This document shows, piece by piece, positions 44,615 through 52,273 of a stretch of DNA of 64,000 nucleotides. Under the pieces are notes generated by a model, which was not told the origin of the DNA, made no database searches, and worked only from the letters and a program-made list of their open reading frames with translations. Position numbers and translations under genes: made by a program. Numbering within the stretch: position 1 is the stretch's first letter; each line of letters begins with the position of its first letter. This DNA is from Parvibaculaceae bacterium (GTDB lineage Bacteria; Pseudomonadota; Alphaproteobacteria; Parvibaculales; Parvibaculaceae), in contig JARGNZ010000004.1 of NCBI GenBank assembly GCA_029209985.1, positions 62,001-126,000 of the forward strand, given 5' to 3'.

Positions 44615-46090
44615 TTATTGGCCCTTACGCAGAATGTCGCTGACCACACGCTCTAAGTCTTTTAGCGAGGTGCAGGTGGCGGCGCTGTCGCAATAAGCTG
44701 AGAGGCTTTTCATTTCACTGTCTCCGGTGCCCCACATGCTTTTGGGTTCGGGATTGAGCCATAGCACTCGTTTAGCGCGCGCGTGCACGACTTTCAAAAT
44801 ATCGGCGCGCGGGTCTGCATTGTTTGACCGTCCGTCACCTAGGACAATGACCGTTGTACGATGATCAATGTCATCGAGCACTGTACGCTCAATTTCCTCA
44901 AATGCCCGTCCGTAATCGGTGGAGCCACTGCCGTAAATTTTGAGTGTTTCCCCAATCGCGGTTTCTAGGTCTTGTGTCTTGAAAAGGTCTGTGACTTCTC
45001 CCAGTTCCCCTGAAAAGGCAAAGGCGCGGACCTTTGGTAAGACTTCTTGGAGGGAGTAGAGGAACATCAACAAGAAGTGTGCGTAGGAAGAGACAGAGCC
45101 GGAGACATCGCAAATGGCGACGAGCTTTGGCCGGTCGATTTTCTTTTGCTTCCAGTGGATGTCGAACATGAGGCCGTCGAAAGCAATGTTTTGGCGGATG
45201 GTTTTTCGGAAGTTTAGAGCGCCGCGAATGTCTTTCTTTTTGCGGCGGCTGTTTAAGGCAACGAGCCTTTTTGCCATTTTGCGTACCAAACCTTGCATCA
45301 ACCGCATGTCGCGGCGGTCTACATTGGTGAGGCGAACGCGCGAGAGCACTTCTTCGCGCAATTGTTGGCCAGCGTTGGCGGTATATAGGTCAAGCTGACG
45401 TTCTACATAATCGCGCACCTGTTCGCGCAGACCATCGCGCAAACCTCTGATGTGGTCGGCGCGATTTTCGTTTTCTTCTGATGCGCGTTCAATCTCCAAC
45501 TCTAAGCCTTCAAGGCCCATGTCTTCCATAATCCGGCGCACATACATGCCGCGTTGAGTGAAAAGACGAATGCGGTCGATGCGGGCATTTTGTCCAGCTT
45601 CAGCTAAGGCTTGTTGCAGGGCAACGGCGTCTCCGCGCTCCAACAAATCCAGAAGGTCTTGGGAACCTTGAGCGTTTTGGGCTTCTTGTGCGGTTGCATC
45701 GTCAGCTTTCTCTGACTGGCCGCCTGCGCCGCCGCCACTGCCGGGTTGGCCGCCTTGACCTTGGCTTTCCGCTTCAGATGGACCGTCTGCTTGGGTTGTT
45801 TCTTCAGAGGGGATGTCGTCTGTGGTTTCGCTTTCTCCCTGTGCAGTGCTGTCATTCGCTGCGGGAGACTCAACCTTCTCAAAGGTGAAGTAACGGTCAA
45901 AAACCCCATTAAAAGCGTATTTATCTTCGTCGGTTTTGGCCAGCACTTGTGAAAGGGCGGATTTGAGGACCTCGCGATCTTCAAACCCCACCAGTTCAGC
46001 TGTGCGCCCCGCATCTATGCTTTCAGATATGGAGACACGCACATCGGATGCCCGTAGCGCCCGAATGAAATTTCCCAGCATTTGGGTCAT
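44615..46090 (-). CDS. CoxE-like VWA domain protein
   Basis: This 491-residue protein ends in a von Willebrand A domain with a complete metal site: CDVSGSVSSYAHFL (DxSxS) near 325, followed by STDYGRAFEE and VIVLGDGRSNN. An acidic, Gln/Gly/Ser-rich linker (about 85-145) separates it from the N-terminal helical part, and a charged helical region (about 195-290) precedes the VWA domain. It is encoded three bases after a MoxR ATPase. MoxR/VWA pairs act as chaperone-like machines that assemble metal cofactors or other complexes (CoxD/CoxE in CO dehydrogenase). No cox genes are present here, so the client is unknown. Confidence 0.9.
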   Translation of the reverse strand: MTQMLGNFIRALRASDVRVSISESIDAGRTAELVGFEDREVLKSALSQVLAKTDEDKYAFNGVFDRYFTFEKVESPAANDSTAQGESETTDDIPSEETTQADGPSEAESQGQGGQPGSGGGAGGQSEKADDATAQEAQNAQGSQDLLDLLERGDAVALQQALAEAGQNARIDRIRLFTQRGMYVRRIMEDMGLEGLELEIERASEENENRADHIRGLRDGLREQVRDYVERQLDLYTANAGQQLREEVLSRVRLTNVDRRDMRLMQGLVRKMAKRLVALNSRRKKKDIRGALNFRKTIRQNIAFDGLMFDIHWKQKKIDRPKLVAICDVSGSVSSYAHFLLMFLYSLQEVLPKVRAFAFSGELGEVTDLFKTQDLETAIGETLKIYGSGSTDYGRAFEEIERTVLDDIDHRTTVIVLGDGRSNNADPRADILKVVHARAKRVLWLNPEPKSMWGTGDSEMKSLSAYCDSAATCTSLKDLERVVSDILRKGQ

Positions 46091-46093
46091 GCT

Positions 46094-47023
46094 TTACGCC
46101 CCTCGTGCTTTGCTCACCAAGGCGTTGAGCTCGCCGTCAATGCCTTCAATGTCGTCTTGGAACTTCAGCAAAACATTGAGGGTGTTGCGCACGAGGTCTG
46201 CATCCAACTCATTGGCATGGAGCAGCATGAGTGTGCGGGCCCAATCAATGGTTTCGGAAACCGCTGGGTGTTTCTTGAGGTCTTCGCCGCGCAAGCCTTG
46301 GACAAAGGCAACGAGTTGTTTGCGTAGGCCCTCGTCAATTTCTGGTACACGGGCGGCGATGATTTTTTGCTCCAACTCAGATTCCGGAAAAGGAATGTAG
46401 AGGTGCAGGCAGCGGCGTTTCAGAGCGTCACCGATTTCGCGGCTATTGTTCGAGGTTAAGAAAACAATAGGGGCAGAGCGGGCTTTGATTGTGCCTAGTT
46501 CTGGAATTGAAATTTGATAATCTGACAAGAGTTCGAGCAGAAATGCTTCGAATTCGTCGTCTGATTTATCGATCTCATCGATCAACAATACAGAGCCGTT
46601 TTCTTCCCATAGGGCTTTAAGCAGCGGGCGGGGCTCTAGGAAGTCTTCAGAGAAAAATGTGTCATCAAAATCGTGCAGGCGGGCAATGGACTCGGTAAGT
46701 CCTTCGGCGCCCTGCATAAGATCGCCAAGTTTTTCTTTGAGAACTTGCGTGTAAAGCAATTGCTTGCCGTATTTCCACTCGTAGAGAGCTTTGGATTCAT
46801 CAACGCCTTCGTAACATTGCAAACGAATGAGCGGTAAGGAAAGAAATTCGGCTGTTGCCTTTGCCAATTCAGTTTTACCAACGCCGGGAGGGCCTTCGAC
46901 AAGAATTGGTTTTTGTAATTGTTGGGCTAGAAAAATCGATGTGGCGATATGGGTGTTGCAGATGTATCCGGATTGCGCGAAGCCTTCGCGAATGGATTCG
47001 ATTTCTTGACGCTGAACTGACAC
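46094..47023 (-). CDS. MoxR-family AAA+ ATPase
   Basis: This 309-residue AAA+ ATPase has Walker A GPPGVGKTELAKATAEF (about 40-56), LQCYEGVDESKALYEW, Walker B SVLLIDEIDKSDDEFEAFLL (about 129-148) and sensor 1 FLTSNNSREIGDALKRR. It fits the MoxR subgroup next to CoxE-type VWA proteins. The stop lies three bases from the VWA start, so the pair is one operon, moxR first. The VWA protein is the expected working partner. It has no link to a client gene in the window. Confidence 0.93.
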   Translation of the reverse strand: MSVQRQEIESIREGFAQSGYICNTHIATSIFLAQQLQKPILVEGPPGVGKTELAKATAEFLSLPLIRLQCYEGVDESKALYEWKYGKQLLYTQVLKEKLGDLMQGAEGLTESIARLHDFDDTFFSEDFLEPRPLLKALWEENGSVLLIDEIDKSDDEFEAFLLELLSDYQISIPELGTIKARSAPIVFLTSNNSREIGDALKRRCLHLYIPFPESELEQKIIAARVPEIDEGLRKQLVAFVQGLRGEDLKKHPAVSETIDWARTLMLLHANELDADLVRNTLNVLLKFQDDIEGIDGELNALVSKARGA

Positions 47024-47265
47024 GAGGTGTTTCCTTGATTTTTTAATATCTGTTGGGGCGGAGACTATCAGCGGAGGGGATAAAGGGGAATAGGGAAGCG
47101 CATTCCCCCTGTTCTTTGTTGAACAGGGCTTGTTTGGATTTGCTTAGAAGAATTTTTCAGGAAGGCTGGTTTTCTGCTGTGTTGAGGGTACAATCCCGGC
47201 AAAGCGCACGCACGGTGTGCATGAACAAGCGCATTTAATGCGTGTCCAAACCGGGAGACTGCTTG

Positions 47266-49353
47266 ATGACCAAGATTAATGACGTCATGACCCTAGAGAA
47301 TGAGGGCGACATTGCTGTCCTTTCACTCAATTCACCGCCTGTAAATGCTTTGTCTGCGCCTGTGCGCGAAGGTATTTTTGAGGGTGTGAAGGCTGCGATC
47401 GCGGATACTTCCGTCAAAGCCATTGTGTTGATCTGTGAGGGACGCACCTTTATTGCGGGCGCCGATATTACAGAATTTGGCAAAAAGCCAGTGGGGCCGA
47501 GCTTGTTTGAAGCTCAGGACATGATTGAAAACTCCTCTAAGCCTGTTATTGCCGCTATTCACGGCACGGCCCTTGGGGGCGGTTTGGAAGTGGCATTGAC
47601 GTGCCATTACCGCGTTGCTGTGCCTTCAGCTAAATGTGGTTTGCCAGAAGTGAACTTGGGTCTGTTGCCTGGTGCGGGCGGGACTCAGCGTTTGCCACGG
47701 ATTGTCGGTCCAGAAGCGGCTTTGCAAATGATGGTGACGGGCGCTCATGTTCCTGCGCCGGTTTGCTTGAAAACTGGCTTGGTGGATAGCTTGGCTGAAG
47801 AAGGTGCACTGCGGGCTGGGGCGGTTGCTTTCGCTCAGAAAGTCCTCAGCGATGGTTTGCCATTGAAAAAAGTGCGTGATTCCAATGAAAAAGTGGAAGC
47901 TGCACGTGGCAAGCCTGAAATCTTCAGCGATTTCCGTAAATCAATCGCGCGCAAGACACGCGGTTTCCTTGCTCCTGAATACAACATCCAATGTATTGAA
48001 GCGGCTGTGAATTTGCCATTCGATGAGGGTGTCGCGGTTGAGCGTAAGCTCTTTGGTGAGTTGGTTACTGGCGAACAGTCAGCGGCGCAGCGCCATGTAT
48101 TTTTTGCGGAACGTCAAGTTTGGAAAATTCCGGGCATTGATAAAGATATTCCGCTCATTCCAATCAATAAAGTTGGGATCATCGGAGCTGGCACCATGGG
48201 TGGTGGCATTTCAATGAACTTTGCCAATGCAGGCATCCCAGTTGTGATTGTTGAGCGTGACCAAGCACCTCTCGATCGGGGCTTGGGTGTTATTCGTAAG
48301 AACTACGAAAACACAGCGGCAAAAGGCCGGATCAGTGCCGATGATGTGGAAACCCGCACGGGGCTTATTTCTGGTTCCACAGATATGAATGCTTTGGCAG
48401 ACTGTGATTTGATCATTGAAGCTGTGTTCGAAAACATGGACGTGAAGCAAGACATCTTCCGTAAGCTGGATGAGATTTGTAAAGAGGGGGCGATCCTTGC
48501 GACGAATACCTCTGCGCTGGACATTAATGAAATTGCTTCTGTTGTGAAGCGTCCAGAAGCTGTGATCGGCTTGCACTTCTTCTCTCCTGCCAATGTGATG
48601 CGCTTGCTTGAAGTGGTTCGGGCAGACAAAACATCTGACACTGTGATCGCCACATCTATGGCGCTTGCTAAGCGGATTAAGAAAATTGCCGCTTTGGTAG
48701 GTGTGTGCCCTGGTTTCGTAGGCAACCGGATTTTGGCTCAACGCCAACGGGAAGCTCAGAAGCTTATCTTGGAAGGCGCGATGCCTTGGGATGTGGACAA
48801 AGTCTTGTTCGACTTTGGTTTGCCAATGGGTCCATTTGCAATGTCAGACCTTGCCGGTCTTGACCTTGGATGGCAGGCAGATAAGAGCAACTCGTCAACC
48901 ATTCGTGAAGTGCTCTGCGAGATGGACCGTCGTGGTCAGAAAACCAGCGCTGGTTTTTATGATTATGATGAGAACCGCAAATCCACACCCTCGCCAGTGG
49001 TTGCTAAAATCATTGAAGAGTTTTCCGAGAAGCACCAGATCAAACGTCGCGAGGTTTCCCAAGAAGAAATCTTTGAGCGGTGTGTTTATCCAATGATCAA
49101 CGAGGGTGTTAAAATTCTCGAAGAAGGTAAAGCAATCCGTGCATCGGATATTGATATCGTATGGATCAATGGATACGGCTGGCCTGTCTACCGTGGTGGC
49201 CCAATGCACTACGGTGAGAAAGTGATCGGCTTGGATAAGGTGTTGGCTAAAATGAAAGAGTTTGAAAAAACTCTTGGGCCTGACTTTAAGCCAGCTGCTT
49301 TGTTGGAAGACATGGTTGCACAAGGGAAGAGCTTCGCCCAAATGGGTTATTAA
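47266..49353 (+). CDS. Bifunctional enoyl-CoA hydratase / 3-hydroxyacyl-CoA dehydrogenase
   Basis: This is a beta-oxidation multienzyme of the FadB/FadJ type, 695 residues from ATG 47266 (behind GGGAGA; a GTG at 47242 is also in frame but has no such site). The N-terminal crotonase domain has the oxyanion segments [14 protein letters not shown] and [16 protein letters not shown] with both Glu positions ([20 protein letters not shown]). The dehydrogenase domain has [20 protein letters not shown] near 306 and two C-terminal HCDH repeats. It probably oxidises fatty acyl-CoA intermediates. No thiolase is adjacent. A strong terminator follows. Confidence 0.94.
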
Positions 49354-49384
49354 TTAAGTTTTTGTCATAACTCTAGCAATTGAA

Positions 49385-49410
49385 GGCCCGCAGTTTTGCG
49401 GGCCTTTTTT
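49385..49410 (+). terminator. Intrinsic terminator after the beta-oxidation gene
   Basis: Perfect eight-base arms GGCCCGCA and TGCGGGCC around the loop GTTT are followed by six T's, 31 bases after the stop codon. Confidence 0.95.
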
Positions 49411-49679
49411 GTGCGTGTTTGGGTTTCTGGCTGTTTTCCTACGTCGCGCTGGGGCTTTGTTGGGGCGCTCGCGGGATGTCACCGATTTCATCACAAATCA
49501 GTGAGCGATTAGTTGAACATTTTGCACTGCTTCGTGATTTCCAGTTGAAGACAAGGTCGGGCACTGTCTTTTTACAGACAGAGACGATGCAATGATCCTC
49601 CAAACGATCCTTTCGCATTTGTCTGTAGGAAGATCAGTTTATGTATCTGCATGATGCAGCTGTCGTGTGAAAGATTGTT

Positions 49680-49741: not shown

Positions 49742-50032
49742 ATGACTAAATCTACAACAGCCCTCGCGCTTGCCGGTGCTTTGACCGCAGCTGTTTCATT
49801 GGCAGCCGTTGCCTCTACTGCTCAAGCCGCGGTGCCAGACAATATGGAAAAATGCTTCGGCGTGTCTAAAGCAGGTGCCAATGATTGTGCGGCAGGTGCG
49901 GGCACAACATGCGCAGGCACATCAACAGTTGATTACCAAGGCAATGCTTGGTCATTGGTTGCCAAAGGGACCTGCACGTCGATTGACACCCCGTTGGGTA
50001 AAGGTTCTTTGACTGAAATCGAACGCCCTTAA
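49742..50032 (+). CDS. bufA1: Bufferin precursor peptide (DUF2282, four cysteines)
   Basis: This is the presumed substrate of the adjacent MNIO enzyme: a 96-residue exported RiPP precursor. It has a signal peptide ([17 protein letters not shown], cleaved near residue 29) and a mature part with four cysteines, Cys38 (MEKCFG), Cys49 (ANDCAAG), Cys57 (TTCAGT) and Cys78 (KGTCTS), the DUF2282 pattern. In described bufferins, made by Caulobacter and other proteobacteria, cysteines are turned into thiooxazole rings and the product binds copper outside the cytoplasm. That chemistry is from published work; here only gene order and motifs are seen. A GCCCTTAAGGGC palindrome spans its stop codon. Confidence 0.9.
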
Positions 50033-50036
50033 GGGC
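50025..50036 (+). promoter_or_regulatory. Palindrome GCCCTTAAGGGC across the bufA1 stop codon
   Basis: A perfect 12-base palindrome covers the bufA1 TAA (50030-50032) and lies just before the bufB1 ribosome-binding site. As RNA it would give a short hairpin that might protect the precursor transcript or lower enzyme translation relative to the precursor. There is no T-tract, so it is not a classic terminator. Confidence 0.35.
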
Positions 50037-50054
50037 TTGAGAAGGAGCGGATTG

Positions 50055-50984
50055 ATGTTTCCCCGACCTCACCAATCCTTCCGTGCTCTTGATCCGATCC
50101 CGGCGCGTGCCGGGATCGGACTCAAAGGTGAGCACATGGATGATGTGCTTGAGACGCGCCCTGACCTTGGGTGGTTTGAAGTTCATCCCGAAAACTATAT
50201 GAACTCTGGTGGTATATTGCATGACCGCCTTGAAAAAATTCGTGCGCTCTATCCACTTTCCTTACACGGTGTTGGTTTGTCGCTTGGCACTTATGGGCCG
50301 CTGGACCGAACGCATTTGTTGCGCCTAAAGGAGCTGGAAGAGCGATATCAACCCGGCCTCGTCTCGGAGCATCTTGCGTGGTGCCGATATGAAGATAAGC
50401 ATTTCAATGACCTGCTGCCGCTGCCTTTGACGCAAGAGGCCTTGGACGTGATGATTGCGCATGTTGACGAGATGCAAGATGTGCTTGGACGCCAAGTTCT
50501 GATTGAAAATCCATCTAGCTATATTTCATTTGATCATGTGGAAATGAACGAGCCTGAGTTTCTTGCCGCACTTGCTTATCAAACTGGATGTGGACTGCTG
50601 CTTGATATTAACAATGTTTATGTGTCAGCGCAGAACCATGGGTTTGATGCTGTCGACTACTTACGCAACTTTCCAGCAGCTTCAGTCCAAGAAATTCATT
50701 TGGCCGGACATGCGCTTGAAGTGCGGGACGGTCATAAAATTCGCATTGATGACCATGGTAGTGAAGTAAGCCAAGAGGTGTGGCAGCTCTATCGATTCTA
50801 TTTACAACAAGTTGGCCCTGTTCCTACTTTGATTGAGTGGGATACGAATGTCCCTGCGTTGAGCGTTTTGTTGGAGCAGGCAGCCCTTGCTGATGTTGAG
50901 TTAAATGGTGGCCCGCTTATGGGCGCACCGCATGGGGCGGGTCATGGTGTGTTTCCGTCTCTCTTCGGAGGGCGCCATGGATAA
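50055..50984 (+). CDS. bufB1: MNIO-family (DUF692) iron oxidative enzyme of the bufferin operon
   Basis: This 309-residue TIM-barrel enzyme belongs to the multinuclear non-heme iron oxidative family (DUF692), which modifies cysteines of RiPP precursors, as in methanobactin and bufferin biosynthesis. Likely iron ligands are all present: His71 (LHGVGLSLG), His106 (VSEHLAW), Glu151 (IENPSSY), Asp184 and Asn187 (LLDINNVYV), His215 and His219 (EIHLAGH), Asp233/His234 (DDHGSEV) and Glu261 (LIEWDTNVP). The ATG at 50055 sits seven bases after AAGGAG; TTG 50037 would lack a site. It follows the precursor by 22 bases and overlaps bufC1 by eight bases. Confidence 0.93.
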   Translation: MFPRPHQSFRALDPIPARAGIGLKGEHMDDVLETRPDLGWFEVHPENYMNSGGILHDRLEKIRALYPLSLHGVGLSLGTYGPLDRTHLLRLKELEERYQPGLVSEHLAWCRYEDKHFNDLLPLPLTQEALDVMIAHVDEMQDVLGRQVLIENPSSYISFDHVEMNEPEFLAALAYQTGCGLLLDINNVYVSAQNHGFDAVDYLRNFPAASVQEIHLAGHALEVRDGHKIRIDDHGSEVSQEVWQLYRFYLQQVGPVPTLIEWDTNVPALSVLLEQAALADVELNGGPLMGAPHGAGHGVFPSLFGGRHG

Positions 50985-51777
50985 CGGGCTTGAGCTGAAA
51001 GATTTTCAAGCAGGTTTTTCGCGTGTTTTGGGAGGGGCACCCACGACTGCTTTGCCCATGCCCCTTCGAGATTTTGGTATGCCGGCTGAACGGCGCTTAG
51101 ATGTGTACCGGAACAATGTTCACCTTAGTTTACGAGAGGCGCTGGCGGCCAATTTTCCGATTGTGCAGCAGTTGGTTGGCGAGGCATTTTTTAGTGCAGT
51201 GGCGCAGGTGTTTTTAAAAACACACTTGCCGGATCAAGCAGGCTTGATTGGATTTGGCAAAGCTTTCCCTGATTTTTTAGAAGGCTTTGAGCCGGCACAG
51301 TCGTTGCCCTATTTGCCGGATGTGGCGCGGTTTGAATGGGCATGGATCTGTACGGCTAAGTCAGCAAATGCAGTGACACTTAAGCCGGAGCGGCTCGGTC
51401 GTGTGACGCCGGACCGTATTGCTGACCTGCAATTTATCCTGCATCCCTCTTGCCGTTTTGTCTCGTCTCAGTTTCCTGTTGTCAGTCTTTGGAACCGTTC
51501 GGTTGCGGGGGAAGATTTAGCGGGCTTGTCTTTTGAAAATAATGGGGAAAACGTTGTGCTGTTTCGTCCTCACTTTGATGTTTTGCAGCGCTCTCTTGGG
51601 CTGGGTGGCTTGGCTTTTCTGAAAGCGCTGGGCGAAGGGTTGGCTCTTGGTGGGGCGGCAGAGCGAGCTGCGACGTATGATGATTTTGATATTGAACATT
51701 CGGTGGAAACTGAGTTGGCAGCAGCGCTTGGTGCTGGTTTGTTTTTAGATGTGAAGCTGCCTGGGGCAGTGATCTGA
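50977..51777 (+). CDS. bufC1: DUF2063 partner protein of the MNIO enzyme
   Basis: This 266-residue protein has the DUF2063 N-terminal domain (FGMPAERRLDVYRNNVHLSL near 30-49, then FPIVQQLVGEAFFSAVAQVF) and a less conserved C-terminal half. DUF2063 proteins accompany MNIO enzymes and are needed for, or help with, recognition of the precursor; the older label 'DNA-binding' has little support. The ATG at 50977 lies within the last codons of bufB1 and behind GGAGGG, so translation is coupled. It has one cysteine pair region (ICTAKS, PSCRF) but no obvious metal site. No signal peptide, so it should act in the cytoplasm with BufB1. Confidence 0.9.
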   Translation: MDNGLELKDFQAGFSRVLGGAPTTALPMPLRDFGMPAERRLDVYRNNVHLSLREALAANFPIVQQLVGEAFFSAVAQVFLKTHLPDQAGLIGFGKAFPDFLEGFEPAQSLPYLPDVARFEWAWICTAKSANAVTLKPERLGRVTPDRIADLQFILHPSCRFVSSQFPVVSLWNRSVAGEDLAGLSFENNGENVVLFRPHFDVLQRSLGLGGLAFLKALGEGLALGGAAERAATYDDFDIEHSVETELAAALGAGLFLDVKLPGAVI

Positions 51778-51784
51778 GGAGGTT

Positions 51785-52273
51785 ATGATGAACGGAAACA
51801 GTCAATCTAGTTCTTTGTGGGGGTCTGTTCAGGGCTTGGTGGTATGGGCCATTGGGATGAGCGAAAAGACACCGGCTTGGATTTACCAATTGGCCATGCG
51901 CGTTGCTATTGGCATGGTGTTTTGGCAGTCAGCCCGTACAAAGGTTGAAGGTGTTTTGACGTTGAAACAGTCCACCTTTTTTCTTTTTCAATACGAGTAT
52001 GATTTGCCGCTGATCCCAGCTGATATTGCCGCTTATATGGCGACTTATGCGGAAACGATTTTTGCCATCTTATTGATCGTTGGCTTGGCGACACGGTTTG
52101 CGGCTGTGTCCCTATTTGTGATGACATTGGTCATTCAAATTTTTGTTTACCCGCAAGCGTGGGTTGTTCATCTGAGTTGGATGGCTATTTTGGCTTATTT
52201 GATGGCCCGTGGTGCGGGACTATTCTCGGTGGATCATTGGCTTAAAAAGGCCTTTATTTCTCAAAAGATGTGA
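51785..52273 (+). CDS. bufD1: DoxX-family membrane protein of the bufferin operon
   Basis: This 162-residue protein has about four membrane helices (IYQLAMRVAIGMVFWQSART, then ETIFAILLIVGLATRF and SLFVMTLVIQIFVYPQAW) in the DoxX pattern. DoxX proteins close many DUF2282/DUF692/DUF2063 operons; their function is uncertain, possibly linked to membrane redox chemistry. A strong site (GAGGAGGT) precedes two adjacent ATGs (51785 and 51788); the second has the better spacing. It follows bufC1 by seven bases and is the last gene before a GC-rich hairpin. The symbol follows published bufferin naming. Confidence 0.87.
   Translation: MMNGNSQSSSLWGSVQGLVVWAIGMSEKTPAWIYQLAMRVAIGMVFWQSARTKVEGVLTLKQSTFFLFQYEYDLPLIPADIAAYMATYAETIFAILLIVGLATRFAAVSLFVMTLVIQIFVYPQAWVVHLSWMAILAYLMARGAGLFSVDHWLKKAFISQKM

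Follow-up and report, generated by a model that had tools for sequence, protein, structure and literature searches.

A four-gene Buf1-type bufferin operon in a Parvibaculaceae bacterium and a candidate promoter distinct from that of Caulobacter

Bufferin clusters of the Buf1 type have a published core of four genes, which encode a DUF2282 precursor, an MNIO maturase, a DUF2063 partner, and a DoxX-family protein (PMC12452194). Buf1 peptides carry modifications on their two central cysteines and a disulphide between the outer two, and copper is sequestered in the periplasm by the thiooxazoles (PMC12452194). The Buf1 operon of Caulobacter vibrioides (CCNA_03363-03366; CC3254-CC3257) is driven by SigF from the site GTAACC-N16-CGAA and held by NrsF (PMC3511200, PMC8224329). 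Gold and copper induce the gig operons of Cupriavidus and Legionella, bufferin clusters that share these core genes; the gig operons belong to a different lineage, and their regulation is not comparable with the data presented here. The captophorins (oxazolin, fontiphorin, and gonophorin) likewise pair an MNIO enzyme with a PME1 partner, and 5-thiooxazole is installed by all MNIO-PME1 systems characterised so far (PMC13097082). Captophorin precursors carry Lys-Cys repeats (EGKCG), which sets them apart from the DUF2282 group to which the precursor described below belongs.

We analysed a window of 64,000 nucleotides from a Parvibaculaceae bacterium (contig JARGNZ010000004.1, positions 62,001-126,000). 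At 49742-52273 of this window, four packed genes on the plus strand encode a DUF2282 precursor, an MNIO enzyme, a DUF2063 partner, and a DoxX protein, the same four gene types as in the Caulobacter operon and in identical order. An earlier note had read this stretch as a complete bufferin-type RiPP operon. The four-gene layout was borne out, with every frame present, open, and on the plus strand, and the bufferin reading is supported by all sequence-testable defining features of a Buf1 cluster: the precursor family, its four cysteines and Sec signal, the match to the BufB equivalog model, the iron-site residues, the DUF2063-RRE partner, the DoxX gene, and the gene order. All four Pfam matches (DUF2282, MbnB_TglH_ChrH, DUF2063, and DoxX) exceed their gathering scores, and a genome-wide search found a single MNIO gene and a single DUF2282 gene. 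Because the core genes are all published for Buf1 (PMC12452194), the operon is a further example of a known bufferin type, and it adds a clean single-copy case from an alphaproteobacterial lineage without NrsF. The best overall explanation, to which we assign a probability of roughly 0.9, is a complete Buf1 (DUF2282) bufferin operon whose peptide would be modified at Cys49 and Cys57, exported through Sec, and copper-binding, and which would be transcribed from a lineage-specific promoter. Apart from the promoter-like element, the findings confirm published knowledge, and the surprise is low.

The precursor gene, bufA (49742-50032, plus strand), encodes a 96-residue protein that matched PF10048 at 84.9 bits against a cut-off of 22.4. 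The four-cysteine DUF2282 pattern described previously is present: Cys38, Cys49, Cys57, and Cys78 align with those of relatives, among which the core CYGV/I...NDC...CAGTS and all four cysteines are retained. A Sec-type signal can be read at the N terminus, spanning approximately residues 1-29 and ending in AQA, with A as the next residue. The palindrome GCCCTTAAGGGC that had been reported at the precursor stop was also found (50025-50036, spanning the bufA stop codon), but its conservation did not extend beyond the genus; it is common to the same-genus relative only and missing in the rest of the family. Its RNA fold was no better than that of shuffled sequences (z -0.25). On these two grounds, we rejected GCCCTTAAGGGC as a regulatory hairpin or attenuator, and its position over the stop codon is probably incidental.

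The maturase gene, bufB (50055-50984, plus strand; 309 residues), likely starts at ATG 50055, which has AAGGAG upstream; TTG 50037 is merely the mechanical start of the open reading frame. BufB matched PF05114 (MbnB_TglH_ChrH) at 346 bits and, with 379.8 bits, passed the cut-off of 310 for the NCBIfam model NF050167 (MNIO_BufB). Counting residues from ATG 50055, the candidate iron-site and catalytic set (H71, H106, D119, E151, D184, N186, N187, H215, D232, H234, E261, and D263) shows no variation in an alignment of 74 MNIO sequences that takes in the solved structure 3BWW, and neither do N47, N152, E166, and N194. The statement that the likely MNIO iron ligands are retained thus agrees with the alignment, with the assignment of which invariant residues bind iron taken from the family literature. 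HvfB requires N175, D242, and H244 for its activity (PMC13419390). Aligned through 3BWW, and allowing a one-residue numbering offset, these are taken to correspond to N187 (or N186), D232, and H234 of BufB. By its motif, D263 reads as the counterpart of FonB Asp249, the proposed catalytic base of that enzyme (PMC13097082).

The third gene, bufC (50977-51777, plus strand; 266 residues), likely starts at ATG 50977, with an 8-nt overlap with the bufB stop, and the DoxX gene starts 7 nt past the bufC stop. BufC matched PF09836 (DUF2063) at 74.8 bits. Its profile matched no PDB sequence, whereas fold comparison did find matches: an AlphaFold2 model built on a 26-sequence alignment (pLDDT 93.4, pTM 0.88) scored Z 14.5 against 3dee, a gonococcal type-1 MNIO partner, and Z 13.5-13.6 against TglI in TglHI structures. 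At Z ~5, residues ~151-261 resembled RiPP recognition elements from lasso-peptide pathways in their leader-bound form. This score alone is not above background; these rows are consistent with the published DUF2063-RRE architecture. The model predicts an RRE-like domain joined to the DUF2063 part of BufC, as in a PME type 1 partner. The fourth gene (51785-52273, plus strand) encodes a 162-residue DoxX-family membrane protein (PF07681, 58.6 bits; PF04173, 32.2 bits). Against the Hvf-named NCBI models, both DoxX and BufC scored below cut-off, as expected of a sister group.

By analogy with the described systems, we infer the chemistry, export, copper binding, copper response, and stress role of this operon as follows. 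The RRE-like domain of BufC would hold the BufA precursor while the multi-iron site of BufB oxidises the two central cysteines, Cys49 and Cys57 only, most likely to 5-thiooxazoles. BufA would then be exported via Sec and cleaved after AQA (residue 29), and Cys38 and Cys78 are expected to pair as a disulphide. With two central cysteines modified and one disulphide formed, full maturation would lower the mass by ~8 Da and a further 2 Da, rather than by 4 Da at each of four cysteines. The matured, secreted peptide would probably mop up excess copper in the periplasm, and DoxX has a putative accessory role.

Copper-related genes were found elsewhere in the genome. A heavy-metal P-type ATPase at C17 scored 571 bits against the copper-translocating model (cut-off 397). 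A second heavy-metal P-type ATPase, at C12, adjoins ccoG- and ccoH-like genes and probably serves as a CcoI-type pump in oxidase assembly. Both C20 and C21 carry multicopper-oxidase domains; RND pumps lie elsewhere, outside the window. Within the window, no ECF sigma, heavy-metal P-type ATPase, RND, or multicopper-oxidase match was obtained, and neither a copper regulator nor a copper exporter stands beside the bufferin operon. The observation that no sigF, nrsF, or copper exporter is nearby therefore holds as tested, all such matches being outside the window. With these genes outside the window, copper handling exists in this organism, not clustered with the bufferin operon.

Of 58 named relatives, 40 yielded the four genes in this order, with the partner scored as a long open reading frame directly after the MNIO gene and not by family. 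Of the named records, Rhodobiaceae bacterium NORP139 comes closest, with 87% identity in the MNIO enzyme. A DUF2282 gene is present in 19 of 40 family genomes, a patchy distribution. Two loci (L058, 1807-2491, and L071, 5107-5952) show a tandem pair of bufferin precursor genes ahead of one MNIO gene. Bradyrhizobium erythrophlei has an unusual split (L076, 3869-6900), with the precursor and DoxX genes on the opposite strand to the MNIO gene.

The lack of a copper gene in the window bears on what the peptide is for. It might be modified as a bufferin and serve against gold, silver, mercury, or cadmium, chromate, or thiol-oxidation stress instead of copper. Homologous gig and SigF-controlled operons respond to gold, silver, chromium, and cadmium (PMC8224329, PMC3511200), so the metal may differ from copper here, and MerC-bufferin fusions exist (PMC12452194). 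However, published bufferins bind copper, and the Caulobacter sigF mutant, which has lost the regulon, is copper-sensitive with a chromium and cadmium profile like that of the wild type (PMC8224329). We therefore regard a role in another stress as unlikely, though it is the most serious of the alternatives, and favour copper binding.

The other two alternatives concern the identity and the integrity of the operon, and both appear highly improbable. An oxazolin/HvfA-type (EGKCG) pathway would share the MNIO-PME1-DoxX module, and BufB does match the HvfB model, at 244.3 bits. That score falls under the HvfB cut-off of 360, whereas the BufB cut-off is passed, and the precursor is a DUF2282 protein with four cysteines and without EGKCG repeats; the precursor type and model scores together refute an oxazolin (Hvf) cluster. 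The patchy presence in the family could be taken to indicate a decaying or silent remnant. Against decay, all frames are open, the iron-site residues are invariant, the overlapping or close starts are kept, and the same-genus copy (MNIO 87% amino acid identity) comes with its precursor, partner, and DoxX genes as well.

Upstream of bufA lies a gene for a fatty-acid oxidation multienzyme with Pfam 3HCDH and enoyl-CoA hydratase domains (47242-49353). It adjoins an ordinary pair of genes on the minus strand (44615-47023) that encode a MoxR-type AAA ATPase and a CoxE-like VWA protein. Past the fatty-acid oxidation gene, a GC-rich hairpin with a T-run can be read at ~49383-49411; it is retained in the same-genus locus (L022) and was not listed by the consensus terminator scan. 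This hairpin is likely a terminator separating the fatty-acid oxidation gene from bufA, so bufA probably begins its own transcription unit. Scans for sigma-70 promoters and terminators gave no excess over shuffled sequences, and Rfam returned no match within the window.

The suggestion that regulation may differ from that in Caulobacter was supported. NrsF is absent genome-wide, and the same search recovered NrsF in Caulobacter as a control. Allowing up to 2 mismatches, no GTAACC-N16-CGAA site was found upstream of bufA, the nearest match lying inside bufA at 49998. With neither NrsF nor an upstream SigF site, we rejected a Caulobacter-type SigF/NrsF-controlled operon. Unlike Caulobacter, the genome carries a different conserved element upstream of bufA, the candidate promoter GTGATTTCC-N19-CACTGT (49534-49567, plus strand), 175 nt upstream of the bufA ATG.

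GTGATTTCC is the sole 9-mer common to the bufA upstream regions at 12 of 12 family loci, and also the sole 9-mer common to six representatives of different types; when those six upstream regions were shuffled, even a common 6-mer arose in just 2 of 2000 trials. At a fixed 19 nt after it, CAYTNT or near variants follow in nearly all loci. Beyond the family, nearly all loci compared lacked GTGATTTCC upstream of bufA. We also examined held-out loci, which were further bufA loci from one of the genera represented among those 12, unused in deriving the pattern. Of the seven that were readable, six gave a best match at 1-3 mismatches (p<=0.017 versus shuffles), though these loci are mutually related and the six matches are not six independent tests. 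The seventh, of a divergent precursor type, had no good match (p 0.18).

These data make GTGATTTCC-N19-CAYTNT a candidate promoter of bufA, and transcription of bufA probably starts from this lineage-specific, non-Caulobacter-sigma-F promoter at ~49534-49567. Two blocks at a fixed spacing suggest an alternative sigma factor. We would give even odds that the family's bufferin operon is switched on at this element by a factor other than SigF/NrsF, probably an ECF-type sigma. The conserved non-SigF element, put forward here as a hypothesis, is the only part that we flag as new, and it offers a testable handle on bufferin induction outside Caulobacter.

GTGATTTCC was missing from every ECF locus retrieved from this genome, and we therefore rejected an ECF sigma gene sharing the promoter of bufA. 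One other exact match to the motif occurs in this genome (C47:1376), near an ECF gene and within a TonB-receptor-like gene; as it sits inside a gene, we rejected it as a second regulon member and attribute it to chance. Exact matches outside bufA in genomes G004 and G008 were likewise taken as chance, being inside genes. An ECF sigma gene, a probable anti-sigma gene, and a Metal_resist gene (PF13801, CnrX-like) stand consecutively elsewhere in the same genome (L080, 1096-2930; G000:C42, ~80.7 kb), a row that is possibly a metal-sensing sigma system. This ECF sigma and an rpoE-chrR pair on C40 are, only by their nature, candidates for the factor acting at the element. In one sister genus (g3), a GTGATTTCC-N19-CA element lies just upstream of a DUF547 gene in three genomes (L121, L122, and L129), which suggests a small shared regulon.
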